From: Closterium sp. NIES-65
Taxonomy: Eukaryota > Streptophyta > Zygnematophyceae > Desmidiales > Closteriaceae
Assembly (NCBI GenBank): GCA_948144175.1
Contig: CANXME010002568.1
Span: 1,487,001 to 1,551,000, forward strand
Length of the DNA: 64,000 nucleotides
Direction of reading: 5' to 3'
In this document: positions 42,258 to 64,000 of the stretch, piece by piece
Position numbering within the stretch: position 1 is the first letter of the stretch
How the letters are laid out: each line of letters opens with the position of its first letter
Translations under genes and position numbers: made by a program
Notes under the pieces: model-generated
Told to the model about the DNA's origin: nothing
Seen by the model: the letters and a program-made list of their open reading frames with translations, nothing else
Databases searched by the model: none

Positions 42258-45200
42258 CTAGAAGAGCCCGAGAGAGCGCTTTCTCTGGTCCTGCTTCCAC
42301 TTGGGCATGGCATAAAACTTACCCTTGTCGTACCCAAATATGCGGAGGAAATCCGCCTCTGACAGGTACGACTGGACGGGGGAGGGAGGGGATAAAGAGG
42401 AGGGTAATTGTTGAGGAGCTTTGAGGAATAGAATCTCCGAACCAAGGCATCCAGGACGGGTAGGGAGGGAATCAGAGAGCCGGAAGCGTTGATTTTGGTT
42501 AGGCCAAGGGGACTGCAGGGTGGGGGGACTGCAGGGCAGGGGGACTGCAGGGTGGGGGGACTGCAGGGCAGGGGGACTGCAGGGCAGGGGGACTGCAGGG
42601 CAGGGGGACTGCAGGGCAGGGGGACTGCAGGGCAGGGGGACTGCAGGGCAGGGGGGCTGCATGTGAGGACACGGGATAGGGGAAGGCACTCGAGGAAGGG
42701 CAATGGAATGGAGGTGGCGGATGACAATGTGAGTTGCAACTGCGACTCTTCTGACAGTCTCGGTTGTTGAGAATCCTCCTGACAGTCTCGGTTGTTGAGA
42801 ATCCTTCTGACAGTCTCGGTTGTTGAGAATCCTCCTGACAGTCTCGGTTGTTGAGAATCCTCCTGACAGTCTCGGTTGTTCAGAATCCTCCTGACAGTCT
42901 CGGTTGTTGAGAATCCTCCTGACAGTCTCGGTTGTTGAGAATCCTCCTGACAGTCTCGGTTGTTGAGAATCCTCCTGACAGTCTCGGTTGTTGAGAATCC
43001 TCCTGACAGTCTCGGTTGTTGAGAATCCTCCTGACAGTCTCGGTTGTTCAGAATCCTCCTGACAGTCTCGGTTGTTGAGAATCCTCCTGCGTGTACGATT
43101 GTGTCGCCACACCATTGGCTGCCACCTCCTGCCTGCCCTTCCGAATCATCGCGTTCCGGCACGCAGCAGGATTCTCCATGATTGCAACTCACATTGTTGT
43201 CTTCCATTAACGATCGACACAACCCCTCAACTGCTGCCACTCGCTCTTTTCAATCCCCCCCCCACTCTCCCCGCCCTCCCCCCTCCCTCCCCCACTCTCA
43301 CCTCTCTTCTTGTAGTGTCAATCCCTCGAATCGGGTTCTTGCTGTCAATGATCAGCCTGTCAAATGAATAACACACCCCCTCCACTGCTGCTTCCCCATT
43401 CCCTGCTCCTCCTGCTCCTCCTGCTCCTCCTCCTGCTGCAGCTGCACTGTCACTGCTGCCACCGCCGCCCTTCTTCCCCTCCTCCTCGCCATCCTCGCTA
43501 TCATCATCCTCGTTATCCGCTTCATGCACCGAGCCTGAGAGAGAATTTCCCCTGGCGAGCTTGAGAGGCTCTGTGAGGGCCGGAGAGCGACGGGGAGGGG
43601 GAGCGGACAGGGAAATGAGTTGTATGGATGAGCCTTCTTCCCCTCCTACTCAAAACTCGACTTATCACACACGAGGGGGAGTGGGCAGGGAAATGAGTTG
43701 TATGGATAAGCCTTCTTCCCCTCCTCCTCGCCCATCCTCACTATCGTCATCCTCATTACCCGCTTCATGCACCGAGCCTGCGAGAGAGTTTCCTCTGGCA
43801 AGCTTGAGAGGCTCTGGGGGCGAACGGGAGAGGGACGGGGAGGGTGATCAGGGAGAAGGGTGGGTGGGGAAGGAGGGGAAGGAGAGGGGTGGAGAGGGGT
43901 GGAGATGGAGAGCCGGGAGAAACATAGGTTGTATGGATGGATGAGGCAGGGCTATCATCATCCTCGTTACCCGCTTCACGCACCAAGCCCCAGAGAGAGT
44001 TTCCCCTGGCAAGCTTGAGAGGCTGAAGAGAGGCAGGGGAGATGGTGAGCGCAGAGAGAGAGGGCTTGGCGGAGGGGGAGTGGTGGCAGACCTGAATCCA
44101 ACCTAACACCTGTAGACTGTGCCGCAGCACTTACTGATTCTTGAGGCAACTCGACTGTCCCTCACCACTCACCCAGTTTCTCCCCTTTGAGCGCGCCAGT
44201 CAGCGCAGCCATGGCAGCGGCTCGCTGGGTTGAAGGGGACGGGCCGGGGGAGGGCCCCCTCCTGCCCGCCAGCCCCTTGATGAGCGCGGGGGAGATGGTG
44301 AGCGAGGAGAGGGTGGGCTTGGCGGAGGGGGAGTGGGGCGTGGAGGAGGAGCGAGGGGTGGAGGAGGATGACGTGGCGGATGGGGATTGGTGCGTCAGTG
44401 CTGCGAGCCGACGCTTGGCCGTCTGGGGAAGGTACGGGGAAAGTGGGGAACAGGAGCGGATGCAGGGTTGGGGAGGGGAAAGTGGGGAACGGGAGTGGAC
44501 GCGGGGTTGGGAAGGGGAGTTTGTGGAGGGGAAGGGATTAGAGCGGAACGGGAGGAAGGTAAGGAAAAGAGGGGATTATGGATGAAGGTTCAGCAGATAC
44601 TGATATGAAATGAAGCCCCTCTTCAAGCAAGAAATGAAGAGCGGGGTAGAGGAAAGGAGGAGGAGGAGCAGGGCAAAGGAGGTATGGGAAGAAGAACGGG
44701 GGAACAAACAAAGTGAAGCGTGAGGGAGGGCAGCATGTGAAGGGAGGGCAGGGAGGGAAGGAAGGGATGGCAGGGGCAGGAAGGGAGGGATTCACATCAG
44801 AGACCTCGAGCGATTCTCCCTGCAGCAACGCCAGCTTTGCTTTTGAGAATTCTCAAAAGCAACACCAACAGGGAGGGAGGGAGGGATTAGGGTTTGAAGG
44901 ACTCACATCGGAGAGCTCGAGCGATTTTCCCTGCAGCAGAGCCAGCTTGCGGTCATAGGGGTCTGCTAGGGTCTGGAGGGGTGAGGAGGGACAAGGAGCA
45001 TAACAGCAAGGGCAAGGGGGGGAAGCGAACAGGGATGCAGGGAGCATGATCAGAAACCAAGATGGGGAGGAAGCGATGTGCCCTGCAGCAGAGCCAGCTT
45101 GGGGCCTGCTATGCTAGGGCCTGGTGGGAGAGAAAGAGGAAGTGGGAGGGAGGGAAGCGGGTGAGTGCCGCTGCCAGCTCTGTGCTCAGAGCTCTATGCG

Positions 45201-48200
45201 ACACGCGCTGCACATAACACATGACACACGCATTGAGGTCGTTTTTTAGGCGCCTCAAAAAAGAGCCCTATGCATCACGCGCTGCACATAACACATGACA
45301 CACACGCACGCACCACATTCGCAGCAGTTGCCCTGAGCTTGACTCATTGCAGTTGAAGCGTGTTCTCAGTGGGGGTGGGGAGGGAGTGCAGTGAACACGG
45401 GGGGCTCGTACCCCTCCACTCCACTCCACTCCACTCCACTCCACTCCACACTACTCCAGCCTTGCAGGTATTGCTGATGCACATACACATGCCACACACA
45501 CCACATTCGCCCATGCACACTCACCACGCTCGCAGCATGGTCCCAGAGAGGAAAGGGCGCCGTGAACATCAGAGGCTTGTGCCCCTCCACCACACTCCAC
45601 CACTCGCACCACCCGATTTCCTTCAAAAAAAGCTGCCCCAATTGCCCTAACTGTGACTTACCGCGCTCGCAGCATGGTCCCAGTGGGGGAAGAGCGCCGT
45701 GAACATGGGGGGCTCGTACCCCTCCACCACTCGCACCACCGTGGTGTCCTTTGACCGCCCTTCCGTTGCTGCCACTCGATCCAAGTAGCGCTGCAATGAG
45801 GGGCCAAAGGAGACAAGATGGGGGCGGAGAGGGTGGAAACAAGGGAGGGTGGACGGACATGGGGGGCTCGTACCCCTCCACCACTCGCACCACCGTGGTG
45901 TCCTTTGACCTCCCCTCCGTTGCTGCACTCGATCCAAGTAGCGCTGCCACAGGGAGAAAGAGGGGAGGGAAGGGTGAGGTAGAGTGAGAGGTGCACCACA
46001 CACATGCAAGTGGGGGGCTCGTACCCCTCCACCACTCGCACCACCGTGGTGTCCTTTGACCTCCCCTCCGCTGCTGCCACTTGGTCTAGATAGCGCTGCC
46101 ACAGGGAGAGGGAGGAAGGGAGGGGCGCGGGAGAGAGACTTGGGAACCCTACCCCGCCTTCAAGTCTTACCAGTATCAACCCCTCATAGACTCACCCTCA
46201 CCAGCGCATAGTTGACTGCCTCTTTTACCAACTCATACGAGCTAGCTACCGCCTTCAACGTCTCTCCACCTTGCAGCACCTCACCAGCGCATAGTTGACT
46301 GCCTCTTTTACCAACTCATACGAGCTAGCTACCGCCTTCAACGTCTCTCCACCTTGCAGCACCTCACCAGCGCATAGTTGACTGCCTCTTTTACCAACTC
46401 ATATGAGCTAGCTACCGCCTTCAACGTCTCTCCACCTTGCAGCACCTCACCAGCGCATAGTTGACTGCCTCTTTTACCAACTCATACGAGCTAGCTACCG
46501 CCTTCAACGTCTCTCCACCTTGCAGCACCTCACCAGCGCATAGTTGACTGCCTCTTTTACCAACTCATACGAGCTAGCTACCGCCTTCAACGTCTCTCCA
46601 CCTTGCAGCACCTCACCAGCGCATAGTTGACTGCCTCTTTTACCAACTCATATGAGCTAGCTACCGCCTTCAACGTCTCTCCACCTTGCAGCACCTCACC
46701 AGCGCATAGTTGACTGCCTCTTTTACCAACTCATACGAGCTAGCTACCCCGCCTTCAACGTCTCTCCACCTTGCAGCACCTCACCAGCGCATAGTTGACT
46801 GCCTCTTTTACCAACTCATACGAGCTAGCTACCGCCTTCAACGTCTCTCCACCTTGCAGCACCTCACCAGCGCATAGTTGACTGCCTCTTTTACCAACTC
46901 ATACGAGCTAGCTACCGCCTTCAACGTCTCACCACCTTGCAGCACCTCACCAGCGCATAGGTGAGTGCTTCTTTTTTCTCCTTGTCAGGTACATTAACCC
47001 CCCCGTCCATGCAAACACCTCTGTGTGTGTGAGCAGCAACTCAAACCACCATGCCACCGCTGTCAACTCATGCCTCGAGCCTTACGATGTCACAACCGTG
47101 TGCCACCCCGCCTTCAACCTCTCACCACCGCTCACGAGGGCATAGTTGAGTGCTTCTTTATTTTACCTGTCTGGTACGTTGACCCCCGTCCATGCAAGCA
47201 CCTCGGTGTGTGTGTCTAGCAGCATCACAAGTGGTTATTGCTTCATGCATTGCGTGTGCACTGTGCACCACCACTACGTCCTTTTAAAAGCGCTACTGTG
47301 TTCAGCTCCTCACTAGCCTCTCAACCCCTCACTAGCCTCTCAACCCCTCACCACCACCTTGCAGCACCTCGCCTCACCACCTTGCAACCACTCACCAGCG
47401 CATAGTTGAGTGCTTCTTTTTTCTCCTTGTCGGGTACGTTGACCCCCGTCCATGCAAACACCTCCGTGTGTGAGTCCAGCAGCATTACAAGTGGCTCAAG
47501 ATTCATGCCTTACAAATGCACCTCACCTCACCACCTTGCACCGCCTCACCACCTTGCACCGCCTCACCACCTTGCACCGCCTCACCACCTTGCAGCACCT
47601 CACCAGCGCATAGTTGAGTGCTTCCTTCTTCTCCCTGTCAGGGACGTTGACCCCCGTCCATGCAAACACCTCCGTGTGAGAGTCCAGCAGCATCACGTCT
47701 TCACTGATCAGATCGTCCTGACTGTACCCCGGCACCTCCAGCACCTGGCAGGTGGGGAGATTCGACGACAAGGGAAGATGTGGCAGTGTTATCAAAGGCC
47801 GATGAGTGTCCAGCCCAGCAGCATCACGTCTTCACTGATCAGATCGTCGTGACTGTGCCCCGGCACCTCCAGCACCTGGCAGGGAATATGAGAGGGGAGC
47901 GGTGAGGATTGAGGCTTTAAGGCTGATGCATCAGACGAGCTCGCAAGCACCTCCACACCTCCGTGTGAGAGTCCAGCAGCATCACGTCTTCACTGATCAG
48001 ATCGTCCTGACTGTGCCCTAGCACCTCCAGCACCTGCACGGTTCGTGGGAGGGCAGATGCCACACGGGGAGGGGAGATGCCACACGGGGAGGGCAGATGC
48101 CACACGGGGAGGGCAGAGAAAGTGGCACAGTATTCAGGTGTGTTAGAGCTGATAAACACCTCCGCATGTAAGCGTCCAGCAGCATCACGTCCTCACTGTC

Positions 48201-49062
48201 CAGATCTTCCTGGCTGTACCCTGGCACCTCCAGCACCTGCAATGGATGGAAGGGGCGGATGGGGAAGGTCACCACAGGGGTTCAGTCTTCAGAGGCGCCT
48301 CAGAGGGAATACGTGTCCCCCGGCTGACTGCACCCAGCAGCATCACATCTTCACTGATCAGATCGCCCTGGCAGTACCGTGGCACCTCCAGCACCTGCAC
48401 AGTGGGGAACGTGGGGAAGAAATGACAGGGAGGGGATGTGAGGTGCCTCGGAAGCAACACGCACCTCCCGGCTGACTGCATCCAGCAAAATCACATCTTC
48501 ATTGATCAGGTCGTCCTGGCAGTACCGTGGCACCTCCAGCACCTGCAGGGTGAGGTGGGGTGGGGCGATGCCACATGGGGAGGGGAGGGCAGGGAGAACG
48601 GCACTGTATTCAGATCTAGCAAGCACCTCACTCAGAAGCTAGGGAGAAGTACCTTGAAGCTGACCAGAACCCCTGACTCTCACTCACCCCCACTATCGTA
48701 CCTTGGAAACCCCTCAAACCCCTTCCCTCTCACAGTCATCATCATCATCATCATCATACCTTGAAGCTGTCGCCACTGCCCGTGACTTGAAACAGCCTGC
48801 CGTCCCGTGCTGCCTCCCTGGCCTCTTTAGAAGCGGGGTACTCCCCCTTGCTGCCCAGATGCTGCCAGAACACGGACGTCTCCTTTCCCTCCACCACTTG
48901 CTTCACCAGCGCGCCGGGCTGTAGACAAGAGGGTAAGAAGGCAGGGGGGAGCCGGAGAGGGAGGCCAAGAGAGGAGCGAATGGGAGAAAATGAGATAACC
49001 ACGGACAGACCACTTGTGCGAGTACCACAAATCAAAGGAGAGGGAATGCAAAGTCATTTGAG

Positions 49063-49155
<93 letters not shown>

Positions 49156-49374
49156 GAGGGGGGGCCTGGGGCTGGGGTAGTGCGGGGTTAGCTGTTGTTT
49201 TGCTGTAGCCTTGCTGTGAGATTGCTGTAGCCTTACCATGTGTGTACCTTGCTGACATTAATACCAAGGACCGTTCGAGAGAAGAGGGGTGAGTTGATGG
49301 GCTTATGGTATTGAGGTTATCATGGATAGAACTGCATGTCTGTACCCCTGCTGAATTAATACAACGGACCATTT

Positions 49375-49471: not shown

Positions 49472-52400
49472 ACAGATTGAGAGAAGACAGAGGGCAACCC
49501 AAGCCGACTTTTGAGTCGACTCAAAACTCGACTCATTACACGAAGACAGAGGGCAACCCAAGCAAGATTATCACCTTGATCCATTTCGAGACGTCTCAAA
49601 AAATGTTATTACCTTGATGAATTTGGCAGCAGCAGCGACAACATCCTTGTCAGCCGCACTGCTGCTAGGCATGATCATAGTGCCCCGGCGGGTCGGGTCG
49701 ACCCGACCCGACCCAGGTTTTGACCCGGGTCGGGTCAGGGATTTTGACGCGCTGACCCGGCCGGGTCGGGTCGACTCGAGACCCGAAACCGGGTCGGGTC
49801 GGGTCGGGTCGGGTCGGATTCCGACCCGACGTTGCACCCGACTCGGTTTCGGGTATCGCGCCCTAAGTCGGGTAGAGTAATTGGCCTGACCCGACATTTC
49901 CCCTCTCAACAAATCGAAGAAAAGCAGATCGCGAAGTCAATGTCTAGGGTTTCTTTGTTCCCTCGACGTTGACATCGATCTGCAATACCTAGGTAGCTAG
50001 CAAGCAATATTTCTCAAGCACTACTACTCTCTAAACCTGCGCCAATGTTTAGGAACACCAATACTAATGTTTCCATGTTGGCGTAAGGGTTTTTAACCTA
50101 GCGCGACCAGGCCTAGATGTTCGATTTTATAGTAGTAGTTATTCTTAGCTCTCACAAGCGACTAAATTCTGGCCCCGCGTTCTAATGGCCCCCTGCGCGC
50201 CTACCAGGCCCGCATCAATAGGGACGCGACCCCCATAGTCTAGGGCTGCGCACTTCCTCTAACGTCGCGACTCCACTTTAAGCAAACGTTCAATCTTTGC
50301 AACACTGGACAGTAGTAAGGAGAACCTCTTACACTGCATATGGGGTTCTGGCCCGACCCGACCCGACCCGGCCCCTACCCGACCCGACCCGGGGGCGGGT
50401 CACGCCTGACCCGGCACCCGATACCCGGGTCAGGCCAGGATTCCTAGAAGTTCCGACCCGACCCGACCCGACCCGGAACCCGGCTGGCCCGCCCAAGTCG
50501 GGTCGGGTCGGGTCGGGCCTAATGATCATGCCTGACTGCTGCCACAGATAACTCTGGGATGTTTCACCTCGACTAGATAGATTTCATATTAAGTAGAAAA
50601 AACATCACCTTGATAATCTCGGCCGCAGCTGCCACAGCATCCTTGTCTGCCGCACTGCTGCCATTGCCAAGCCACAAAAACGGGCTGGACGGCGTCTGCA
50701 GCAAGAAGCAATCCTCTGAGTTCAGCGACTTGGCCACTGGATCCATCTGAACCGCTTTGAACAGCGCTGCACCACCCGCGCCAGTAGATGCCGCCCCCCG
50801 GGCACGCACGCGGAAAAGAGCCACGCCTGCCGGGTCGTATGTGTCGTCGGAGCCGCCCTGGGCGGCGATCTTCGCCTTGTAGCTCGCACTGCTGCCGCCC
50901 TGGTTGGGTGGAGTTGGTAGGGTTTGACAGGTGTGCGGCGGCAGGCAGGGGAGTAGACGGATGGGTGGGATGGTGTGGCATGGAATTGACAGGACAGGCA
51001 GTAGGGGGGTTTCCCATAAAATTCACACTTGGAGATCAAAAGTTGGGTGTGGAGATGGATGGGTGTCCCTCCCAACCTCGTTTCTTTTCTTAAGCCAAAA
51101 ATCGGAGCTTGGCATTCAAATCGACTCGGGATGAGCACGATGACTTTACCTTCATAGAGTTTGAGAATTCCCAGAAGTGATTGATTCGGCCTTACCTTGA
51201 GAAAGAAGAGGTGTGCCTTAAACAAGGAGAGCAACAAGGAGAGGTGTGAAGTGAGACGGTTCCCATGTGCCTACAATATTCATCCTGCCTTGTATATCCA
51301 TCTTGAATCGACTCCAACCAGGCCAGGCCTTACCTTGAGGAAGAAGAGATGGGTTCTGAACAAGGAGACGAACTGCTCGGGTTCCCTCCCCTGCACCACC
51401 CGCACCTGTCAAGTTGAAAGGCCAAGGGGGAGGCGGGCAGGGAGGGGAGGGGATGCAAAAGAGGTAAGGGAGAGGAAGGCAGATGGGTAAGAGAGGAAGG
51501 CAGATGGGTAAGAGAGGAAGGCAGATGGGTAAGAGAGGAAGGCAGATGGGTAAGAGAGGAAGGCAGATGGGTAAGAGAGGAACAGTTAAGGGAGAAGCCA
51601 TCAAGGGAGAAGCCATCAAGGGAGAAGCCATCAAGGGAGAAGCCATCAAGGGAGAAGCCATCAAGGGAGAAGCCATCAAGGGAGAAGCCATCAAGGGAGA
51701 AGCCATCAAGGGAGAAGCCAGTGAGTGAGTGGGTTGGATTGGAGGCAGTGGGTGGGTGGGTTACTAGACAGACAGACAAACAGACACCACATGGCACATA
51801 CCAGAGTGGCGTTGCCTCTGAGAGCGTCGACTGCCCTCTTAGCAACACCAAGAGCAGACGTGCGCTCCTCCTGAGTGCTGTCTCGGCCCATCCACAGGAA
51901 CACCACGTATTCAAGCGTGCGACAACTGTCCTTGTGGCCACAGCAAGAGCCGACGTGCGCTCCTCCTGAGTGCTGTCTCGACCCACCCACAGGAACACCA
52001 CGTACTGAAACTTGCCCTCGCTTACACCTCACATCAGTACCCTGTTACCGGGCACACACTGCATGCGTGCGTACATACATACCAGAGTGGCGTTTCCTCT
52101 CAGTGCGTCTACTGTCCTTGTAGCAACACCAAGAGCAGACGTGCGTTCCTCCTGAGTGCTGTCGCGGCCCACCCACAGGAACACCACGTATTCGAACTTG
52201 CGGTCGCGCGTGAAGGTGTATTGCACAACGTAGCAGTCGCCGCTGTGGAACCGCCCCATGTCCTCTGCTGCTACTAGGGTCTTGTTGCTGCCGTTCACCC
52301 TCCACACCTGCTTCACAGAGAGGGGAGGAGGGTGGGCAAGTAAAGAAGAAGACAACTTATCTACATTCAACTGCCACACCTGCTTCTTAAGGAGGGGAGG

Positions 52401-55400
52401 ACGGAGAAGATTTTGGTCAGAAAGCAGCGTAGTTGCTCGGCTGCAAGAGGAGCTCGGCTGCAAGAGGAGCTGCATGTGGTGGAATGGAACTGCTGCTCCT
52501 ATTGCAATTATGGAAATGCTCCTATTGCAATTATGGAAATGCTCCTATTGCAATTATGAAAATGCTCCTATCGCAATTATGGAAATGCTCCTACCGCAAT
52601 TATGGAAATGCTCCTATCCCCCAGTTATGGCAATGCTCCTATTGCAATTATGGAAATGCTCCTATTGCAATTATGGAAATGCTCCTACTGCAATTATGGA
52701 AATGCTCCTATCGCAATTGTGGAAATGCTCCTATCCCCCAGTTATGGCAATGCTCCTATTGCAATTATGGAAATGCTCCTATTACAATTATGGAAATGCT
52801 CCTATTGCAATTATGGAAATGCTCCTATTGCAATTATGGAAATGCTCCGATTGCAATTATGGAAATGCTCCTAATGCAAATCGCAAATATGGCAATGCTC
52901 CTATCCCAATTATGGAAATGCTCCTATCATCAAACTGAATAGATGAGGGTGGCAACTCTGTTGCTTCCCTCATGCCATGGAAATGGAACGACTTGCAATA
53001 CGCTTCAATGAACTGAGACGATGGACTGAGGCGCCTCAAAAGTCATGCGATGGAAATGGAACGACTTGCAAGACGCTTCAAAATTCCCTTTTGAGAATTC
53101 TCTTTTGAGAGTCACTTTTGAGAACTCTCAAGACGCTTCGAAATTCCCTTTTCAGAATTCTCTTTTGAGAGTCACTTCTGAGAATTCTCAAGACGCTTCA
53201 AAATTCCCTCCATAGCAGCACAGCACTTGCCTCCTCTGGTCTACCTCTCCCCCCCCCTTCGCTCTCACTATCCGCCTCCTTGCCTCACCTTCATCTCGCC
53301 AGCAACATCAGCGAGAGGAGGCGGTGGCGGCTCTGCTGCCCCTGCTGCTAGTTGTTTTTTTTTATTCCCAGAAACTGACTAGTCTTTCTTTACCACACCC
53401 CCCACTCACCAATTCCCTTTTTCTTGCCTCGTCCTCACCTTCATCTCCCCGGCAACATCAGCGAGAGGAGGCGGTGGCGGCTCTGCTGCCCCTGCTGCTG
53501 CCTGCGGCCCCCTCCCCACTGCCTTGTCCACCATGCCTGACTGCCGCAGCATGGCTGTTGGGGGAGGGGAGAGATGGAAAAAGGAGGGGGGAAGGTGGTG
53601 GGGTGGGGAGAGGCGTGGTTGGGTTCTAATGCACACAAGTGCCTCTGCTGCTGCCACTTCTGCACCCACCCCTGCCCAAAACTGCCTTGTATCCAACTGC
53701 CAGCGCATGGCAAGCAGTTGGAGACAGGGGGCAAGGCAAGCAGCTTTGGCAAGCAGCTCTGGCACGAGACAGAGCTGCTTGCCACACCTGCGCCCCGCAG
53801 AGGGATGGAGGTTCGAGTGGCTGCTGTTACGCTGAGGTGCTTTTGCAGGGTGTAATGGATGGAATGGATGGAATCATCTCAAAGAACCTCACCTGCGCCC
53901 TGCTCCTCTGCTCTCCTCTCCGCTCGCCTTTGAGCTTGCTGGCCCTGCCTTCCCACCGCTCATGCGTGTCAGTGTCACGAGCACCGATGGGATAGAAGGA
54001 TGGTTGGTGGTTGATGATACAAATGTCTTTAGAGACACCTCAAGAGCCCGCCTCCCCTCTCACCTTTGAGCTTGCTGGCGCCTCCCTCCCCACCGCCCAT
54101 CACAGGGGCGAGAGGCCACTCTGCAAAGGCCGCCTTGAAGGCTGCTGTCTCGCCTCGCTCACTCATGCGTGTCACTAGCACTGAGGGGGGGCGGCTGGAC
54201 ATATGCGCCTGGTATGTAGTAGGGACGGGGAAGGTGGGTGGGGTGGGTCTTGAGTGGGCAGTCTACAAGCATGACTGAGTGGGCCTTGAAGGCTGCTGTC
54301 TCGCCTCGCTCACTCATGCGCGTCACTAGCACTGAGGGGGGGCGGCTGGACATATGCGCCTGGTGGAAGGTAGGGACGGGGAAGGGAGGAAGGAAGGGAG
54401 GTGGGGGGAGGGGGGAATGGGGGGAAAGGGGGGGAAGGTGAGGGCTTGTTGAATGGACAGATTACAAGCAGGGATGAGCGAGGCTTGAAGGAGAAGCACT
54501 CAATCAAACCACACTCTCACTCTTCTTCACACCACACTCACCCTCACGCTGCTCACTTCTCACACCATTCACTCACTCAACCCACCCTCACAGTCCTCGT
54601 ACCACTCCCCCTCACACCAGTCCTCCTCCACTCCTCGCACCACTCCCCCTCACACCACTCCACTCCCCCTCACACCACTCCTCACACCACTCCTCACACC
54701 ACTCCTCACACCACTCCTCCACTCCTCACACCACTCCTCACACCACTCCTCCACTCCTCACGCCACTCCTCACGCCACTCCTCACGCCACTCCTCCTCAC
54801 ACCACTCCCACCTCACACTGCTCACCTCTGCAGCCACACAGGCCGCCCGCCTGTCAGGAACGGTGCTGAGCTGCCAAAACCCTCACGAGTCACACCACTC
54901 ACTCACACCCCCTCCACTCACTCATACCCTCACGAGTCACACCACTCACTCATTCCCACTCACACCACTTTCCCTCACACCACTCACCTCTGCAGCCACA
55001 CAGGCCGCCCGCCTGTCAAGCACGGTGCTGAGCTTCCCGAACCACACAAAGAGGTTCGGGCCCGTGTCAAGCAGGTAGCACTTGCTGCTCTCAAGCAGAT
55101 TCTTCTTGAGAGGCGCCTTGGCTTGCTCTTGCAGACCGCTGGAGGTGACGCTGGAGAGGAGTAGGGAGAGAAAACGGGGAAGGGGGAAAGGGAGGAGCAA
55201 TTGGCAAAGCAAACCACAAAGGTGGTGTGGCACTTGCTGCTCTCCAGCCGACTATTCTTGAGAGGCGCCTTGGCTTGCTCCTGCAGGCCGCTGGAAGTGA
55301 CGCTGGAAGGGAGTAGGGAGAGAAAGGCGGGAGGGGGGTAAGGGAGAGAAAGTTGGGGAAACAAAGGAACATGGTAGCACTTGCTGCTCTCCAGCCGACT

Positions 55401-58400
55401 CTTCTTGAGAGGCGCCTTGGCTTGCTCCTGCAAACTGCTGGCAGTGACGGGGTGGAAAGGGGGGAACAAGTGGTAGATCACACTGCCAGGAAGGAAAAAC
55501 TGACTCTGGCATGCATGCACGCACGCACACACACACGCACACACACACGCACACACACACGCACACACACATGCATGTGCACTCACGGGTAAGGAGTGGG
55601 AGGCAAAGCGGCGGCATATACGACTAGGTATATTCAGTGGCATAACACAAGCACACATGTGCACTCACAGGTAGAGCGTGGGCGGCACGGCCTTGGCCTC
55701 CACATCGTCCTCACTGACACTCTTCTTGGCGATGGGAGCAAAACAAAGAAGTGGTATTCCCTACCTTCTGGGTAGGTACATACCCACAAGCAACCACACA
55801 TGTGCGCTCACAGGTAGAGCGTGGGCGGCACAGCCTTGGCCTCCACATCGTCCTCACTGACACTCTTCTTGGCGATGGGAGCAAAACAAAGAAGTGGTAT
55901 TCCCTACCTTCTGGGTAGGTACATACCCACAAGCAACCACACATGTGCGCTCACAGGTAGAGCGTGGGCGGCACAGCCTTGGCCTCCACATCGTCCTCAC
56001 TGACACTCTTCTTGGCGATGGGAGCAAAACAAAGAAGTGGTATTCCCTACCTTCTGGGTAGGTACATACCCACAAGCAACCACACATGTGCGCTCACAGG
56101 TAGAGCGTGGGCGGCACAGCCTTGGCCTCCACATCGTCCTCACTGACACTCTTCTTGGCGATGGGAGCAAAACAAAGAAGTGGTATTCCCTACCTTCTGG
56201 GTAGGTACATACCCACAAGCAACCACACATGTGCGCTCACAGGTAGAGCGTGGGCGGCACAGCCTTGGCCTCCACATCGTCCTCACTGACACTCTTCTTG
56301 GCGATGGGAGCAAAACAAAGAAGTGGTATTCCCTACCTTCTGGGTAGGTACATACCCACAAGCAACCACACATGTGCGCTCACAGGTAGAGCGTGGGCGG
56401 CACAGCCTTGGCCTCCACATCGTCCTCACTGACACTCTTCTTGGCGATGGGAGCAAAACAAAGAAGTGGTATTCCCTACCTTCTGGGTAGGTACATACCC
56501 ACAAGCAACCACACATGTGCGCTCACAGGTAGAGCGTGGGCGGCACAGCCTTGGCCTCCACATCGTCCTCACTGACACTCTTCTTGGCGATGGGAGCAAA
56601 ACAAAGAAGTGGTATTCCCTACCTTCTGGGTAGGTACATACCCACAAGCAACCACACATGTGCGCTCACAGGTAGAGCGTGGGCGGCACGGCCTTGGCCT
56701 CCACATCGTCCTCACTGACACTCTTCTTGGCGATGGGAGCAAAACAAAGAAGTGGTATTCCCTACCTTCTGGGTAGGTACATACCCACAAGCAACCACAC
56801 ATGTGCGCTCACAGGTAGAGCGTGGGCGGCACGGCCTTGGCCTCCACATTGTCCTCACTGACACTCTTCTTGGCGATGGGTGCAAAGACGTGGCAGGCAT
56901 ATACTAGCTACACACACACACGCACAGGGACACACACACTGCGCTGAACTCACAGGTAGAGCGTGGGCGGCACTGCCTTAGCCTCTATGTCGTCCTCACT
57001 CGCACTCTTCTTGGCGATGGGAGCAAAGCCGCCAAAGAGGTCCCAGAACTCGCTGGAGCTCGCATCGTCCGCCTTGCCGTCATCTGGAGGAGAGGAAGAG
57101 GAAGGGGAGGGAGGAGGGAGGCAGAGCATGGAGAGAAGCAGGGGGAGGGGCGTGCAACTCTTCTTGGCGATGGGAGCAAAGCCGCCAAAGAGGTCCCAGA
57201 ACTCGCTCGAGCTGGCGTCGTCCACCTTGCCATCGTCTGCGATGTAAAACGAGGGGACGGGATGCGGAAAAAGGGGGGTGGGGAGGCGGAAAAAGGGGGG
57301 GTGGGGAGGCGGAACAGGGGGCATGGGGAGGCGGAACAGGGGGGGTGGGGAGGCGGAACAGGGGGGGTGAGGAGGGCAGGAAGGATATGTCAATCCAAAA
57401 CCCTCAAACCTGAAACCCAAAAAATACTAAACCCTGACCAGCACAGAGAGTGGCGACTGGCGCTTGAGCAGCAGAGTGGCATCGGTGGCTCGAACTCGTT
57501 CCTGCTCTCAGGAGGCAGCAGCTAAGGCGCACTTCCAAGCAGCTGAGTGGAGTCGGTGTTTGAAAATTCTCAAAAAGGAGTCGGTGGCACACAATGGGCT
57601 TACCTGCAACCGCACCAGCTCACCTTGAACAGCAGCACAGGCTTACCAATCACAGCGACGGGCATGCTGCCGTTAGGTGACTGGCTCTTGAGCAGGAGAG
57701 TGGCGTCGGCGGCTCGAATGCGCTCCTGTTTGGCGACATTGGCACCGTTGAACTGGTAGAGCTTGGAGGGCGCTTGCAGCACAAACACGTCTGAGTGGTT
57801 CAGGAAGGAGCGCGCGAAAGGCACCTGTGGGATGGGACGCAGAGGGAGGGGTATCGGATGAGGGGTGGAGGCACACTCAACGGGGAAATTTGGGGTGAAG
57901 AGCTTGGAGGGCGCTTGCAGCACAAACACGTCCGAGTGGTTCAGGGAGGAGCGCGCAAAAGCGACCTGGGATGGGGAAAGCTCAAAGAAAAATCGTTTAG
58001 TGAGAACGCCTGGCCCCTTTCCCCCACGAGGGGGATGATGCAGGGGCGTAAGTAAGACAGGAACTGCAGCGACTCGTGCTGGAACTGTGCCATACCCACC
58101 TGACCTGATGCTAGTCCCACTATCGGTGCAACTTTCGGTGAGATTTCTCCTGCCTCTCACCTGTCGCACGTGCAGGAACTGTCTGCCTTTTAACCTGGTA
58201 CAGCCTCGGCTCTCCCCACTCGCCCCGTCCGCAATGGGGATAATGCAAGGGCGGAAGTAGGACAGGGAGAGCGGCGACTCGTGCCCTGCTGCTAGCCCTC
58301 CTCTTCCCAACCACCCATTGTGAGACCCCCTCACTCACCTGTCGCACGTGCAGGAACCGTCTCCCCTTGACCTGGTACAGCCTCGGCTCCCCAGTTGGCC

Positions 58401-59984
58401 CGTCCGCAATTGGAATGACACAGGGGCGGAAGTAGGACAGGAACAGCGGCGACTCGTGCCCCTGCTGCTCGCGGTGCTGCGTTGACTTGCCGCCCACGGC
58501 AATATCTAGGTCCAGCGCCTTGAGCGCTGCCCGAGACGCGTCCTCTGGTGTGGCTCCCTTGCCCAGCCAGTAGTGCACGGCGTGGGTCACGCCGCCTGCC
58601 GCTTTGGAACCCGAGATCTGAGGGAGAGACAAATGAGGGAAGGGAGGATAAGCAGAGGATGAAAGACGTGTGAGACACGTGAGAGACAGGAAGACGCTTC
58701 CTCTGGTGAGGCCCTCTTGCCCAGCCAGTAGTGCACGGCGTGCTTTGAATCCCGAGGTCTGGGGGAGAGAGAAGGGAGGGAAAAGGTGGAAGGGAGAATT
58801 TTTTTAGGGTGAGAAAAGAGACACAGCGAGTGATTTTTGAGAATTCTCAAAAATCACATGTGAGGGTGAGAAACGAGACACAGAAAAACGCGTCCTCCGG
58901 TGTGGCTCCCTTGCCCAGCCAGTAGTGCACGGCGTGAGTCACGCCCCCTGCCGCTTTGGACCCTGACGTTAGGTGGTGAGAGAAGGGAGGGACGGAGGGA
59001 ATGAGACACGTGAGAGTGTAAGGCTTGCCCAGCGGGAGAAGCATGGCGAGGGTGATAACTAGGTGACTTTTGACTCGATTCAAAAGTCACCTCGTTACAG
59101 TGGCACACGACACATTTTGAATCAACTCAAAAACGAGACGCGTGAGAGTGTAAGGCTTGCCCAGCCGGGGAGGCATGGCGTGGGTGCCCGTGACGTTGCC
59201 AGACGATGTGGATAACTTCTAAATTCCAGACGATTTAACTTCTGATGCCTAAGGTTGTGGAATCGAAGAACCTCACTTAGAAAGGCTCAGGCACAATGTA
59301 GGTGTTGGTGTTGCCATACCTGGCCTACAGAACGAGAACTACTTTACCCTAGACAGATTGAAGTGTAGCTAGGTTAAAATCCGCGTTATAGCGCACCTTG
59401 AGCACAATGTAGATGTCTCGGGTGTAGAACTTGCCATGTTCGGCCTTGGGAACAGGAACCACCTTGCCCTGCTCCAATCGCCATACGTCCAATCCCCTGA
59501 AAACACGGAACCGCCACGTCAGCAGGTCAGTACCATAACGAAACCAGTCACGGGAGCCATGTGCGACGGTATTAGTGTTGTCCCCGTTTTAGGACAATGG
59601 TCGCGGTATAAGACAATGACCGCGCCTTGTCACTCAATGTCCCCATTTCAAAACAATGTGCGTCCTTGGAGAAGGAGATAATGCCAGCATTCCTGTCATT
59701 GATTAATAATCGGATGTAAGATGTCTGACCGACACGCAATGAAGCATCAATGCTCGGAAAAGACACGCAATTTCGGCCAGATAGTCTTCGGTTCATGCTT
59801 TATCGGCCCGAAGGCAGGCATGCGGCGCTACTAAACAGCAAGCTTTCCAGTTCCTACGCACGCCGATGTGTATACTACATCAAGAAATCAGAATTCCCTT
59901 TCGCTGGAAAGAACGCAATGTGCGGTTGCAAGAACGCGGAAATTTCACCAGCACGAGAGCGGGCACTTACGTAAGCGACGTCAT
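42258..59984 (-). CDS. VLN: villin (six gelsolin repeats plus headpiece)
   Basis: Villins bind, bundle, cap and in some forms sever actin filaments in the cytosol. I read 18 exons; the first is only 14 nt (59971-59984: MTSL plus two bases) and the last is 42258-42371. They sum to 2841 nt (946 aa) with matching phases. G1 opens [25 protein letters not shown] and includes [16 protein letters not shown]1-G3 cover about residues 5-330 ([17 protein letters not shown] in G2; [11 protein letters not shown]). G4 starts near 376 ([23 protein letters not shown]). G5-G6 run to about 720 ([54 protein letters not shown]). A Ser/Pro/Gly-rich acidic linker follows (736-890). The headpiece core is [11 protein letters not shown]...[16 protein letters not shown], with the actin-binding KWKQ patch intact. 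Nearly every intron carries copies of the adjacent exon edges. Confidence 0.94.
42513..42660. repeat. CTGCAGGGCAGGGGGA-type tandem repeat in a villin intron
   Basis: About nine units of 15-16 bp in the intron before the headpiece exon. Confidence 0.9.
42755..43088. repeat. 28-bp tandem repeat in a villin intron
   Basis: The unit CTCGGTTGTTGAGAATCCTC plus CTGACAGT repeats about 12 times. The 285- and 335-aa frames through it join the headpiece frame only by chance. The minus-strand CTGTCAGGAGGATT faintly resembles the start of the headpiece exon (CTGTCAGAGGCGGATT). Confidence 0.93.
43770..44090 (-). repeat. echoes of villin linker exons 16 and 17
   Basis: Copies of LARGNSL...[13 protein letters not shown] (exon 17 start, about 43725-43815 and 43955-44030) and of [14 protein letters not shown] (exon 16 internal/end, about 44035-44085). 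Confidence 0.75.
44787..44840 (-). repeat. 3' echo of villin exon 15
   Basis: Copy of [12 protein letters not shown] plus donor, downstream of exon 44907-44972. Confidence 0.85.
44837..44862. repeat. 26-bp perfect palindrome, centre AATT
   Basis: Arms TTGCTTTTGAG / CTCAAAAGCAA around AATT. Member of the TTTTGAG-N4-CTCAAAA family. Confidence 0.95.
45060..45125 (-). repeat. echo of villin exon 15 in the upstream intron
   Basis: Diverged copy (KLALLQGT) with a trailing CTAGGGCCTGG that resembles the acceptor side. Confidence 0.6.
45242..45262. repeat. palindrome, centre GCGC
   Basis: TTTTTTAGGCGCCTCAAAAAA; one arm lacks a G. Confidence 0.75.
45366..45640 (-). repeat. two 3' echoes of villin exon 14
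   Basis: 45524-45640 ([21 protein letters not shown]) and 45366-45470 ([10 protein letters not shown]), both downstream of exon 45662-45790. The second carries an expanded CCACT pentamer run. Confidence 0.85.
45860..46108 (-). repeat. two 5' echoes of villin exon 14
   Basis: 45860-45950 (single-base deletion shifts its frame) and 46014-46108 ([27 protein letters not shown], frame intact), each with acceptor GCAG|CGCTA. Confidence 0.9.
46199..46980 (-). repeat. 83-bp array, 10 copies: 3' echoes of villin exon 13
   Basis: CCAGCGCATA starts at 46201, 46284, 46367, 46450, 46533, 46616, 46699, 46784, 46867 and 46950: 83 bp each time, once 85. On the minus strand each unit ends NYALV-like coding sequence at a CTG|GTGAGG donor, as in exon 13 (47604-47744). 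Units are nearly identical to one another but diverged from the exon. Confidence 0.93.
47125..47490 (-). repeat. two further 3' echoes of villin exon 13
   Basis: About 47125-47210 and 47390-47490 keep [20 protein letters not shown] sequence, closer to the true exon than the 83-bp units are. Confidence 0.85.
47809..48550 (-). repeat. five 5' echoes of villin exon 13
   Basis: Copies at about 47809-47885, 47957-48038, 48163-48246, 48326-48402 and 48465-48550. Each begins at an AG acceptor followed by VLEVxxxxQxDLxxEDVxLL and breaks off after 25 or so residues. Confidence 0.9.
49066..49149. repeat. (GA)n microsatellite
   Basis: About 84 bp in a villin intron. A second (GA)n run occurs at about 49374-49468. 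Confidence 0.97.
49374..49468. repeat. (GA)n microsatellite, second run
   Basis: About 95 bp with one AA interruption near its start. Confidence 0.97.
49509..49526. repeat. 18-bp perfect palindrome, centre TCGA
   Basis: TTTTGAGTCGACTCAAAA. Confidence 0.95.
49585..49600. repeat. palindrome, centre ACGT
   Basis: TTCGAGACGTCTCAAA; 10-bp perfect core GAGACGTCTC with one arm mismatch outside it. Confidence 0.8.
49608..49670 (-). repeat. 3' echo of villin exon 11
   Basis: Copy of [18 protein letters not shown] and donor, separated from the true exon end (50609) by the inserted element at 49679-50521. Confidence 0.85.
49671..50529. mobile_element. non-autonomous hAT-like insertion in a villin intron
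   Basis: The 8-bp word ATGATCAT flanks the segment on both sides (49671-49678 and 50522-50529), the target-duplication length of hAT transposons. The 843-bp interior has dense GGGTC/GACCC arrays at both ends (about 49688-49860 and 50350-50518) and no coding sequence in the middle. The outermost bases (AGTGCCCC and TAGGCCCG on the other strand) match only weakly as inverted repeats. Confidence 0.6.
51193..51232 (-). repeat. 3' echo of villin exon 10
   Basis: Copy of [10 protein letters not shown] with the GTAAGGC donor, downstream of exon 51334-51405. Confidence 0.85.
51475..51722. repeat. two adjacent tandem repeats (21-22 bp and 15 bp) in a villin intron
   Basis: GGCAGATGGGTAAGAGAGGAA x5, then GGGAGAAGCCATCAA x9. 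Confidence 0.93.
51796..52015 (-). repeat. two 3' echoes of villin exon 9
   Basis: One copy is [20 protein letters not shown]...ALRGNATL with donor; the other lacks the end. Both lie downstream of exon 52083-52307. Confidence 0.88.
52366..52392 (-). repeat. 5' echo of villin exon 9
   Basis: Short copy (VWQLN) with acceptor AAGCAG. Confidence 0.65.
52504..52930. repeat. 23-bp AT-rich minisatellite in a villin intron
   Basis: The unit GGAAATGCTCCTATTGCAAT plus TAT repeats about 18 times. Two units share a CCCCCAGTTATGGC variant, indicating block duplication. Confidence 0.93.
53027..53038. repeat. palindrome, centre GCGC
   Basis: TGAGGCGCCTCA followed by AAAGTC on the right arm. Confidence 0.8.
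53075..53210. repeat. 60-bp duplication built of TTTTGAG/CTCAAAA-type half palindromes
   Basis: Two tandem copies of a segment containing CCCTTTTGAGAATTCTCTTT and ACTTTTGAGAACTCTCAAG. Confidence 0.85.
53286..53350 (-). repeat. 3' echo of villin exon 8
   Basis: Copy of the [23 protein letters not shown] end with GTGAGG donor, downstream of exon 53439-53554. Confidence 0.88.
53930..53990 (-). repeat. 3' echo of villin exon 7 (rearranged)
   Basis: Carries GCCTTTGAGCTTGCTGGC and CTCATGCGTGTCAGTGTCAC pieces of exon 54064-54208 joined with the middle deleted. Confidence 0.65.
54276..54365 (-). repeat. 5' echo of villin exon 7
   Basis: Copy of [20 protein letters not shown] with acceptor. Confidence 0.9.
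54822..54885 (-). repeat. 3' echo of villin exon 6
   Basis: Copy of the exon end (AACVAAE-coding) with donor. The intron to its left is a CTCACACCACTC-type repeat (about 54520-54810). Confidence 0.88.
55224..55450 (-). repeat. two 5' echoes of villin exon 6
   Basis: 55224-55310 and 55374-55450 repeat [15 protein letters not shown]...LESSKC with acceptors. Confidence 0.9.
55669..56953 (-). repeat. 143-bp array, 9 copies: 3' echoes of villin exon 5
   Basis: AGGTAGAGCG starts at 55669, 55812, 55955, 56098, 56241, 56384, 56527, 56670 and 56813; the true exon edge is at 56954. On the minus strand each unit is intron head, then [23 protein letters not shown] and a CT|GTGAGC donor. Units are almost identical. 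Each also holds the inverted repeat CCTACCTTCTGGGTAGG. Confidence 0.96.
57160..57245 (-). repeat. 5' echo of villin exon 5
   Basis: Copy of [19 protein letters not shown] with acceptor GCAG in the same splice phase as the true exon (56954-57083). Confidence 0.9.
57446..57510 (-). repeat. 3' echo of villin exon 4
   Basis: Diverged copy of the [20 protein letters not shown] segment. Confidence 0.75.
57893..57980 (-). repeat. 5' echo of villin exon 4
   Basis: Copy of [20 protein letters not shown] with acceptor, upstream of exon 57647-57824. Confidence 0.9.
58020..58300 (-). repeat. two 3' echoes of villin exon 3
   Basis: 58154-58300 copies the exon end ([19 protein letters not shown]... to LHVRQ and donor). 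58020-58090 is a shorter copy. Confidence 0.88.
58690..58980 (-). repeat. two 5' echoes of villin exon 3
   Basis: About 58690-58765 and 58885-58972 repeat the GSKAAGG...[21 protein letters not shown] start, separated by a perfect 28-bp palindrome (58830-58857). Confidence 0.88.
58830..58857. repeat. 28-bp perfect palindrome, centre AATT
   Basis: Arms GTGATTTTTGAG / CTCAAAAATCAC around AATT. Confidence 0.95.
59061..59092. repeat. 32-bp near-perfect palindrome
   Basis: Arms AGGTGACTTTTGA / TCAAAAGTCACCT; one mismatched pair near the centre. Confidence 0.9.
59283..59355 (-). repeat. 3' echo of villin exon 2
   Basis: Decayed copy of the exon end (GCACAATGTAG...TTGCC on the + strand). Confidence 0.65.
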
Positions 59985-61037: not shown

Positions 61038-64000
61038 CTACAGCTGTGGTGATAAGTGTTTCTGAAAGCACCGCCAGTCATACTCCACTTGTCGCGAGTA
61101 ACTCAACGCCACCTCCCACACAAGCTCCTCAAACTCGTTCTTAGCCGCTGCCTTAGACAGAAGTGCAAGCTCCTGGCACAATGCTGGCCGTTGATCTACC
61201 GGTGGGTCAGGATCTAGCAGACTAGCAGCAACAGCATGCTGTGATGCTAGTATGCGCGCCCAGTCCTCTGCAAGCTCCACTAACCCCTCCTGTAGTTTGG
61301 TTGGACAAAGGGGGGGTGGACCGTGGATGGAAAGAGCACTGCGTAGATCAGCCTGATAGCAGGTTGACAGGGACACCAATTTGAATGGGCAGTCTGCAAA
61401 ACAGATAACGAGCAACAGGTTACCACATACGGTAAGCCCTACCAGCACACGGAGGGTTATCTTGTCGACAACAGCGACCCACCTGAGCTGTGAGGACGAA
61501 CCCACGTGGGTAGTGAGGGCAAACCCACGTGGGTGTGTGAGGGCAAACCCCCGTGAGTTCTGAGTCGACTCAAAACACTCATGTTGCTGTCACGTGCAGC
61601 AGTCATGGCACCCAAATGGTGTTCACTCAAACCCACGTGAGTGATGAGAACGAACCCCTTGAGTGCCAAGTAAAAATCAAAACACCCAAATGGTGTTACC
61701 TATGCTGCTGCTACATGCAGTCATGGCACCCAAATGGTGTTCACTCAAACCCACCTGAGTGGTGAGAGCAAACCCCTTGAGTTTCGACTTGACATCTGCA
61801 GACACAGCGGCTGGGTACTCCTCCTCATAAGGCGACACGTCTCTCACTGAGTACCGCCCGGCAGCACTCGGGTGCACACCCTCCTGCACGGAGGAACAGA
61901 AAGGAAATCAAGGCATTTTATACGCAATGGCTGTCATTACTCTGAGAAGTGGGGTTCCTCTGTAACCTCACAGCAGCCGGGTACTCCTCATAAGGCGACA
62001 CGTCTCTCACCGAGTACCACCCGGCAGCACTCGGGTGCACACCCTCCTGCCAGGAAGAGCAGAAAACGGGATTAAAAGGGCGTGTGCACATTCAACTCAG
62101 AGGATTCAGGCGAAAACAGTGCATTTGCTGTGGCATTGCTGTGCACACCCTCCTACATGCCCCTTCACCCTCCACCCACACTCCACCCCTCACCTGCAGC
62201 TCCATCCATCCAATGCTGCTGCCGTCATGTGAAGAGCACAGAGCAGTGCTGGCTTCCAAGAAGCGATCCGTCTCGTGGGGGAAGCGGTGGCAGCCCCACC
62301 TCCCACCTCCACCTCTCCACCTCCTAACCTCACACCCTCATTTGCACCGGCCCTCACCTGCAGCTCCATCCATTCGATGCTGCTGCTGTCGTGTGACGAG
62401 CACAATGCAGCGCTGGCCTCCGAAAGCAGGTTTGTCTCGTGGGGGAAGCGGTGGTCCCCACCTTACATCTCCGTCTCTCACCTGCGTATTCTCCCCTCAC
62501 CCACACCTGCATCCCTCACCTTCGTTTCACCCCTCACCTGCAGCTCCATCCATCTGATGCTGCTGCTGTCATGTGAAGAGCACAGAGCAGCGCTGGCCTC
62601 CAAGAAAGCGGTCCGTCTCGTGGGGGAAGCGGTGGCAACCCCACCTCCCACCTCTGTGTTCTGTCCCTCAAATGCATTTCCTTCCCTCACCTCCACCCAA
62701 TCTCTCACCTGCAGCTCCATCCATCCAATGCTGCTGCTGTCATGTGAAGAGCACAGAGCAGCGCTGGCCTCCAAGAAAGCGGTCCGTCTCGTGGGGGAAG
62801 CGGTGGCAACCCCACCTCCCACCTCTGTGTTCTGTCCCTCAAATGCATTTCCTTCCCTCACCTCCACCCAATCTCTCACCTGCAGCTCCATCCATCCAAT
62901 GCTGCTGCTGTCATGTGACGAGCACAGAGCAGCGCTGGCCTCCAGGAACCGGTCCGTCTCGTGGGGGAAGCGGTGGCGGTACGCGCGGCGCTCATCAGGG
63001 TTCATGAAGTGGTAGGCGGTGGGGCGCTGCTGCATGCGCACGTCCAGCACATGTAACTCCCCGCTGCTCGTTTCAGTCTGAACACATGTAGATGTACCGA
63101 GGGGGGAAGAGGGGGGGGGGATTGAGGTGAGATGAGGTGAGGTGAGAGAGTTGTGATCTGCCCTCGGCGCTCATCAGGGTTCATGAAGTGGTAGGCGGTG
63201 GGGCGCTGCTGCATGCGCACGTCCAGCACATGTAGCTCCCCACTGCTCGTTTCAGTCTGAACACATGTAGATGTACCGAGGGGGGAAGAGGGGGGGGGGG
63301 GGGGGATTGAGGTGAGATGAGGTGAGGTGAGAGAGTTGTGATCTGCACTGCTGGTTTCAGTCTGAAAACATGTAGCCACGGGGGAGAGATGAGTTGTAAT
63401 GACGTGAGATGAGGTGAGGTGAGAGAGTTGTGATCTGCCCTCGGCGCTCATCGGGATTCATGAAGTGGTAGGCGGTGGGGCGCTGCTGCATGCGCACGTC
63501 CAGCACATGTAACTCCCCACTGCTGGTTTCAGTCTGAACACATGTAGCCACGGGGGAGAGATGAGTTGTAATGACGTGAGATGAGGTGAGATGAGGGGGT
63601 TGTGCTGTGCGCTCGTCCGGGTTCATGAAGTGGTAGGCCATGGGGCGCTGCTGCATGCGCACGTCCAACTCGTTTAGCTCGCCACTGATGGTTTCAGTCT
63701 GGCGGTTAGAGGGTGAAGAGGCAAGAGATGGGAAGAGATGAGCAGCTGAGCATGCTATGCTCTGCACTCATACGCGTTCATGAAACGGTAGGTAGGCTGT
63801 CGGGAGCTGCTGCATGCACACAGCTATATTGAAATCACTTTTGAGAATTCTCAAAAGCACGTCTGAACTCCCCACTGCTCGTCTCAGTCTGAACACACAG
63901 GCCAGGGTGGGAGGTGGGATGTGGTGTGAGAGGGATGTGGTGTGAGAGGGATGTGGTGAGAGGGATGCGGTGTGAGAGGGATGCGGTGTGCACTTGTGGG
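61038..64000 (-). CDS. unrecognised protein, 3' part (runs off the right edge)
   Basis: Clear exons are 62880-63077 (66 aa: TETSSGELHVLDVRMQQRPT...GWMELQ) and 61755-61883 (43 aa: EGVHPSAAGRYSVRDVSPYEEEY...), both phase 0, and a terminal exon near 61038-61393 (DCPFKLVSLSTCYQ...RCFQKHLSPQL, stop at 61038). The phase between the last two exons does not join simply, so an exon is missing from my model or a splice site is misread. The protein looks soluble and partly helical; I do not recognise the family. Introns carry multiple exon-edge echoes as in villin. Upstream exons lie beyond 64000. Confidence 0.6.
61455..61685 (-). repeat. 3' echoes of the 43-aa exon
   Basis: Copies of LKGFVLITHVG-like sequence with donor (AAACCCACGTG on the + strand), downstream of exon 61755-61883. 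The phrase CACCCAAATGGTGTTCACTC also recurs. Confidence 0.75.
61970..62055 (-). repeat. 5' echo of the 43-aa exon
   Basis: Copy of EGVHPSAAGWYSVRDVSPYE with acceptor, upstream of the true exon. Confidence 0.88.
62190..62790 (-). repeat. four 3' echoes of the 66-aa exon
   Basis: Copies of ASAALCSSHDSSSIGWMELQ and its GTGAG donor at about 62190-62290, 62355-62445, 62535-62635 and 62705-62810, downstream of exon 62880-63077. The two nearest the exon share a 177-bp period and are almost identical. Confidence 0.92.
63165..63790 (-). repeat. 5' echoes of the 66-aa exon
   Basis: Copies of TETSSGELHVLDVRMQQRPT...NPDER with acceptor at about 63165-63262, 63345-63365 (short), 63440-63540 and 63608-63705, and a decayed one after 63765. 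One of these might instead be a true upstream exon. Confidence 0.85.
63838..63857. repeat. 20-bp perfect palindrome, centre AATT
   Basis: CTTTTGAGAATTCTCAAAAG. Confidence 0.95.

Follow-up and report, generated by a model that had tools for sequence, protein, structure and literature searches.

Extra copies of exon edges in the adjacent introns of four neighboring Closterium genes

Four genes and their models

The subject of this analysis is a 64-kb window (the whole stretch of DNA analysed, 64,000 nucleotides of the Closterium contig CANXME010002568.1) in which introns contain extra copies of the edges of the exons that they adjoin. Four adjacent genes from one strain make up the sample, and the analysis was conducted at the DNA level within the window. 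All four are on the minus strand, in the order right-edge gene, villin, PPK2, and ACC1; coordinates are window positions, and all the copies described below are on the minus strand as well. The introns are GT-AG throughout, and each model has a single stop, at its last codon.

The villin gene (60119-42258) has 18 exons and 17 introns, with 14,985 nt of intron sequence. Its protein matches the Closterium sp. NIES-64 protein P0001 at 100% identity with 98% query coverage, and the 941 aligned residues show 0 differences; P0001 is without exon 1. The window therefore most likely derives from this zygnematophycean strain or one nearly identical to it. The acetyl-CoA carboxylase gene ACC1 (37381-23350) has 24 exons and matches the Pfam families Carboxyl_trans, ACC_central, and Biotin_carb_C. 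Its alignment to P0241 of NIES-54 covers 2401 residues with 70 differences and a single internal gap of one residue, and the two agree through all 23 junctions; the NIES-54 end has 23 extra residues. This agreement is between proteins and does not bear on where introns lie in NIES-54. PPK2 (38569..41172, 2 exons) was modeled from the Pfam PPK2 match and splice sites; exon 1 follows the open frame, and its start codon is provisional. The right-edge gene (61038..64000) extends past the window. Its three visible exons (63077-62880, 61883-61755, and 61289-61038) were placed by tblastn with P0002 of Closterium sp. Naga37s-1, an entry that lists PF10009. According to the strain's paper, the annotation of NIES-64 drew on RNA-seq (PMC10407611).

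Exon-edge copies in adjacent introns

Every exon was compared with every intron of the four genes (43 introns) by blastn at one fixed threshold. Same-strand exon copies were present in the adjacent intron in 34 of 86 exon-intron pairs (18/43 upstream, 16/43 downstream), against 0 of 780 pairs with non-adjacent introns of the same gene and 1 of 1155 pairs with introns of other genes (E 0.007). A comparison of adjacent with other pairs had been suggested in the initial annotation of this stretch; run here on four genes, it sets the adjacent pairs clearly apart. On the opposite strand, one adjacent pair out of 86 (PPK2 exon 1) and two cross-gene pairs matched, all in a GAG trinucleotide repeat of the PPK2 intron.

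Upstream, 25 of 29 matches extend to within 12 nt of the exon 5' edge; downstream, 29 of 33 extend to the exon 3' edge. Edge-anchored matches thus number 54 of 62, and no match is a copy of a whole exon. At the blastn threshold, no 5'-edge copy was found downstream of its exon and no 3'-edge copy upstream, which agrees with the side rule proposed in the initial annotation.

Twelve of the 16 villin exons from 2 to 17 have at least one copy in an adjacent intron at this strict threshold. Weaker copies were sought by unmasked local alignment and scored against 40 control introns; by this method a weak downstream copy was found for exon 2 (59291..59350, at the 3' side) and another for exon 10 (51196..51230, at the 3' edge), with scores equaled by 0 of the 40 controls. 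The initial annotation had credited nearly all of these exons with copies of their own edges, and with the two weak cases this is close to what we found. No copy of exon 12 was detected even by unmasked local alignment, and none of exons 1 and 18 by either method.

The blastn copies in villin are distributed as follows. Exon 3 has copies on its 5' side (58692..58966) and its 3' side (58032..58296), and exon 4 has a 5'-edge copy (57899..57961) and a 3'-side copy that stops 29 nt short of the edge (57452..57504). A 5'-edge copy of exon 5 is located at 57157..57234. For exon 6, two 5'-edge copies (55227..55449) and one 3'-edge copy (54826..54881) were found; the 5'-edge copy of exon 7 (54283..54359) is 98.7% identical, and its 3'-edge copy (53928..53963) has GC in place of the donor GT. 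Downstream copies only are seen for exon 8 (3' edge, 53289..53349), exon 9 (two at the 3' side, 51802..52021), and exon 11 (3' edge, 49613..49665, 996 nt away). Intron 11 also contains two clusters of CGGGT-type pentamer repeats, at about 49680-49870 and 50340-50525. Three 3'-edge copies of exon 13 lie at 46951..47488. Exon 14 is flanked by two 5'-edge copies (45857..46095) and two 3'-side copies (45375..45603), and exon 15 by a 5'-side copy 20 nt short of the edge (45072..45104) and a 3'-edge copy (44796..44837). Two 5'-edge copies of exon 17 are at 43711..44024.

The number of copies per villin exon side ranges from 1 to 9. The maximum is a string of nine 3'-edge copies of exon 5, each with exon tail and donor, which occupies 55669..56890 in intron 5 with a period of about 143. 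Upstream of exon 13 there are five 5'-edge copies (47812..48542), each preceded by AG. An array of 9.4 copies of an 83-bp unit (46196..46975) has a unit that contains a fragment of the exon 13 tail and donor and that pairs with 47566-47627 across the end of exon 13.

In the right-edge gene, both visible introns carry copies: four 3'-edge copies of the first visible exon (62194..62807), and a 5'-edge (61969..62046) and a 3'-edge copy (61638..61664) of exon 2, all by blastn. Unmasked local alignment gave five more matches upstream of the first visible exon (63165..63888), four of which start from exon base 1. For PPK2 exon 2, the blastn match is single and short (39369..39403; 35 nt, 91%) and begins 15 nt inside the exon.

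Nine of the 24 ACC1 exons (3, 8, 9, 10, 17, 21, 22, 23, and 24) have blastn copies. Those at the 5' side comprise three matches for exon 8 (34525..34698) and edge copies of exons 9 (33865..33929), 10 (33259..33337), 17 (two, 30570..30935), 22 (26941..27021), 23 (26468..26517), and 24 (25684..25725). Edge copies at the 3' side belong to exons 3 (36474..36505), 17 (two, 29805..30071), and 21 (27143..27262). The initial annotation had named at least nine ACC1 exons, PPK2 exon 2, and the right-edge gene, and all of these were recovered; the interval that it gave for the phenomenon, 42258..63790, includes villin and leaves ACC1 and PPK2 outside.

Probable duplication across splice junctions and its alternatives

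The distance from an exon edge to its nearest copy has a median of 151.5 bases upstream (n=18) and 150 downstream (n=15). The intron part between the nearest copy and the exon has a median of 75 and a minimum of 55 in the 18 upstream copies, and 72 and 39, respectively, in the 15 downstream copies. That the upstream intron part is never shorter than 55 nt is as expected if the retained acceptor depends on a branch point and a pyrimidine tract of its own. The medians led us to suspect a nucleosome-sized unit; this is not claimed, since limits of detection and of splicing could give the same values. In all eight introns with both kinds of copies, the tail copies of the upstream exon precede the head copies of the downstream exon.

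We consider recurrent small tandem duplications across splice junctions to be the probable source of the copies (probability about 0.75). A unit, typically of about 150 bp and roughly half intron and half exon, would be duplicated in tandem so that it straddles the splice junction, and such events would have occurred repeatedly in villin, ACC1, PPK2, and the right-edge gene. After a duplication, only one copy of the junction would touch the exon body. The splicing machinery would keep the exon-proximal copy, the protein would be unchanged, and the spare copy would turn into intron; repeated events, or the expansion of a single unit, would give rise to strings of up to nine copies. Slippage, unequal exchange, or the repair of paired nicks may generate the duplications. 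The exon-proximal site is presumably the one used in RNA, in agreement with the deposited gene models. Since the exon body would touch only the last copy, spare 5' edges should be found only upstream, and the mirror case applies to donors. The side rule is therefore a geometric necessity of duplication across a junction: it is not independent evidence for such duplication and is silent on selection or function. It does disfavor copy-and-paste insertion.

As expected under junction-spanning duplication, the copies are nearby and in the same orientation and contain some intron flank and a splice site together with the exon edge; the distal part of the flank is clear in a minority. In an ungapped identity profile of 24 upstream and 21 downstream copies, exon-side identity is 0.78-0.94 within 30 nt of the junction. 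On the intron side, identity is 0.53-0.58 at positions -20 to -7 (controls 0.37-0.40) and 0.48-0.58 at +7 to +20 (controls 0.25-0.31), and it nears the control level by 30-60 nt from the junction. Intron-side homology farther than 30 nt from the junction ranked top in 9 of 45 units, with 2.1 expected by chance. The matched intron part extends over 64 nt at 80% upstream of villin exon 6 and over 72 nt at 100% for right-edge exon 1. The initial annotation had inferred tandem duplication across junctions, and the intron-side identity and the distal homology lend support to this, whereas the side rule adds nothing of its own.

These counts have a defined scope. Copies in the interior of the villin exon 5 array were excluded from the codon, splice-site, profile, and distal-homology counts, and most of them from the copy-pair table. 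Matches ending beyond 4-21 nt from the edge (the cut varies by analysis) were excluded from the edge, splice-site, profile, pair, and distal-homology analyses, and the distal-homology test excludes units with at least 260 nt, or with fewer than 25 distal nt, between copies. By eye, the introns of the four genes are purine-rich after donors and pyrimidine-rich before acceptors, a bias that makes the alignment of intron flanks unreliable.

The stretches from exon edge to farthest copy amount to 10,516 of 24,349 intron bases, and the copies alone to 4,508. ACC1 introns with copies have a median length of 466 (n=9), compared with 195 for those without (n=14; one-sided p 0.0002); the mean intron length in the NIES-64 assembly is given as 488 bp (PMC10407611). 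For ACC1, the length difference supports the intron growth inferred in the initial annotation.

Several results weigh against duplication across junctions as we describe it. The length difference between villin introns with and without copies is not significant (14/17 with copies, p 0.17). Eight of the 62 matches, four on each side, end more than about 12 nt before the edge. The downstream copy of villin exon 16 (44030..44087) is internal and off-edge, an exception to the rule of sides and edges; it was found by unmasked local alignment with a score that 0 of 40 controls reached. In 36 of the 45 units, intron-side homology farther than 30 nt from the junction is not top-ranked, and the intron part meets the blast threshold in 4 of 34, against a median identity of 0.90 for the exon parts. 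The same step appears between copies: in 27 pairs, median identity is 0.883 on the exon side and 0.725 on the intron side (controls 0.67-0.70). Finally, the ratio of divergence at zerofold- to fourfold-degenerate sites (d0/d4) between exons and copies is 0.24 (bootstrap 0.17-0.33; 34 exon sides), below the value of at least 0.5 expected if a copy evolves neutrally while its source exon is constrained.

The step could be due either to fast turnover of intron flanks by indels, or to little flank at birth, or to restrained change in the exon parts. The low d0/d4 hints at the third of these, as does an excess of third-position differences, with 211 of 353 mismatches between exon and copy at third codon positions. 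An origin of the copies in diverged alleles or paralogues may be a further explanation. Hypermutability of intron flanks was rejected as the sole cause: in the exon 5 array, the seven inner copies differ from one another by 0.0000 in their 60-nt flanks and by 0.0048 in their exon parts. Gene conversion from exon to copy was also set aside; it would produce the step but, by our reasoning, not a d0/d4 below 0.5.

A step of this kind could also arise if break repair copied exon edges with a few intron bases into the intron close by, as templated insertions. In keeping with such insertions, the homology often stops a few to some tens of bases past the junction, with the exon part up to 98.7% identical, and distal homology is retained in just the nine units. 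However, templated insertion should be indifferent to side and orientation, and we found no wrong-side copy and a lone inverted adjacent match, in a trinucleotide repeat. Some units are plainly tandem, such as that of right-edge exon 1, where 72 of 72 flank bases match. We regard break-repair insertion as unlikely.

The codon pattern raises the question of whether selection maintains the copies, either as splice sites (decoy or alternative) or as alternative coding segments. In addition to the third-position excess and the d0/d4 value, changes confined to single copies are synonymous in 62 cases and not in 64, and some of them may have arisen on the line of the exon itself. The splice dinucleotides are mostly retained (AG in 20 of 26 upstream copies, GT in 20 of 21 downstream copies), and 9/26 and 8/21, respectively, score at least as high as the real site with matrices from these 43 introns. 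The downstream copy of exon 13, with some intron flank, is part of a predicted protein of Naga37s-1 (39 residues identical by eye). This prediction, P0002, fuses the right-edge gene to villin and reads the exon 13 copy as coding, and such copies can therefore mislead gene prediction. On the other hand, stop changes are not depleted (4 compared with 132 nonsynonymous changes, for an expected ratio of 0.029 to 0.677), 15 of 17 indels in the copies shift the frame, and a frame continued beyond the copy ends at a stop codon for 18 of 26 copies upstream and 18 of 21 downstream. In the upstream family of exon 13, 14 of 20 variable sites are nonsynonymous. At 92 residue differences between villin exon and copies, the copies share the residue of the NIES-68 and NIES-54 villins at 12 and 14, and the real exon at 44 and 42, respectively; that copies match these distant villins at some residues indicates that the exon's own line contributes changes. 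A selected function for the copies appears improbable, somewhat more so than templated insertion.

An assembly artefact of noisy long reads is very improbable. The near-identical 143-bp and 83-bp arrays may have wrong copy numbers; outside them, most copies show several per cent divergence from the exon, and the exon 13 downstream copy with its flank recurs in the Naga37s-1 prediction. If the window comes from the published NIES-64 assembly, it rests on 107 Gb of PacBio Sequel data with an N50 of 30 kb, assembled and polished with Canu, Arrow, and Pilon, as stated in the strain's paper (PMC10407611).

Copy age, possible hot spots, and known systems

At all four villin residues within copied codons that differ from Naga37s-1, some copy has the Naga37s-1 residue; two of the four sites rest on the end of a partial Naga37s-1 model. 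For ACC1 and NIES-54, one site of four has the NIES-54 residue in the copy (exon 10); the copies of exons 3 and 17 share the NIES-64 residue, and one further copy matches neither strain. Some copies thus seem to predate the strain splits and others to postdate them. Judging from these few residue sites, intron growth by edge copies is probably old and still continuing, the second of which the initial annotation had suggested.

Duplications at edges might be conspicuous only because the exon part stays recognizable, with tandem duplication proceeding in the ordinary way throughout the genome, independently of splice edges. This account is compatible with junction-spanning duplication, and we give it close to an even chance. 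With the intron part detectable in 4 of 34 units, most intron-only events would be missed, and uniform placement predicts an edge share of 0.22 in villin and 0.55 in ACC1. In contrast, villin has 20 exon sides with copies and two to three intron-only long-unit repeats, a count for which minisatellites, pentamer repeats, flanks of edge copies, and a palindrome repeat were set aside from 21 listed pairs. Five clusters of long-spaced repeats were found in stretches, about 20 kb in all, that contain no identified gene; most are minisatellites, and one is a 181-bp satellite (6017-8398; 13.2 copies, 85% matches). Given the low detectability of intron parts, the edge excess in villin would have to be set against a closely related genome before it could be relied on. 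A more tentative idea, to which we give about half as much credence, is that exon-intron junctions in Closterium are duplication hot spots at which a process linked to transcription or splicing keeps duplicating some 75 bp to either side. If so, introns would lengthen away from the exon edges, and older versions of the exons would be preserved in them as a fossil record.

Other repeats and elements were noted in the window. A palindromic motif, TTTTGAGNNNNCTCAAAA, with varied and mostly palindromic cores, has 14 matches with at most 2 mismatches (4 exact), compared with 0.21 expected in shuffles. They are confined to the part of the window from 41 to 64 kb, and by the gene models each of the 14 falls in an intron or outside exons; among them are 44841-44858, 49509-49526, 58835-58852, and 63839-63856. 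The motif is possibly a tiny mobile or hairpin element. Pieces of a Copia-type retrotransposon (16884-20928) comprise three consecutive or overlapping open frames with matches to Pfam RVT_2, integrase core, and Pol_BBD. A tRNA gene (12521-12593, minus strand) was the sole Rfam match at gathering thresholds, and structured RNA was rejected as an explanation of the copies on that basis.

Intron lengthening by means other than transposons is hard to document, as intron sequence decays fast. Exon-derived copies would serve as dated markers, with which the rate and direction of intron growth become measurable within a species complex. They would also make it possible to test in a natural setting how the spliceosome passes over many good-looking sites beside the correct one, and the Naga37s-1 villin model, which takes a copy as coding sequence, is a caution for gene prediction.

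Duplicated or mutually exclusive exons were rejected: they would be copied whole with both splice sites, which none of the 62 matches shows. Introner elements were set aside provisionally: they would form a cross-gene family, and in the exon-to-intron matches among the four genes no such family was seen, the single pair in 1155 being the one same-strand match between genes. No title on one-sided exon-edge copies in introns was found in the literature searched, which omitted most subscription journals. A 2007 study by Zhuo et al. concerns, by its title, human introns from tandem arrays.

In the intron gain of the AGGT type (Rogers 1989), a duplicated, purely exonic unit becomes an intron (PMC4974935, PMC2891723). 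Here too, duplicated exon sequence lands in an intron, but the Closterium copies include intron flank, and the order derived for AGGT-type gain, with the head of the next exon before the tail of the previous one, is reversed in 8 of 8 introns; we rejected this type of gain for the copies. The potato RdRp gene, as described in PMC4974935, is closer: a tandem genomic duplication of the parental intron-exon structure contains a putative branch site, pyrimidine tract, 3' splice site, and exon start. In that single gene, the result was a new intron and inserted exon sequence, whereas the Closterium protein has no insertion, and the spare copy joins an old intron, on 34 exon sides. Human segmental duplications contain internal tandem repeats at exon-intron boundaries, with 80 modifications in 210 loci (PMC2812944). 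They resemble the Closterium copies in having tandem units at the boundary that are partly spliced out, with novel introns; they are headed as minisatellite expansion, and the accessible portions of that paper describe no one-sided edge copies through a whole gene. With the potato and human cases at hand, the statement in the initial annotation that no named system matches at this density was too strong: junction duplication is already known as a kind, and its density in these four genes is what is new to us.
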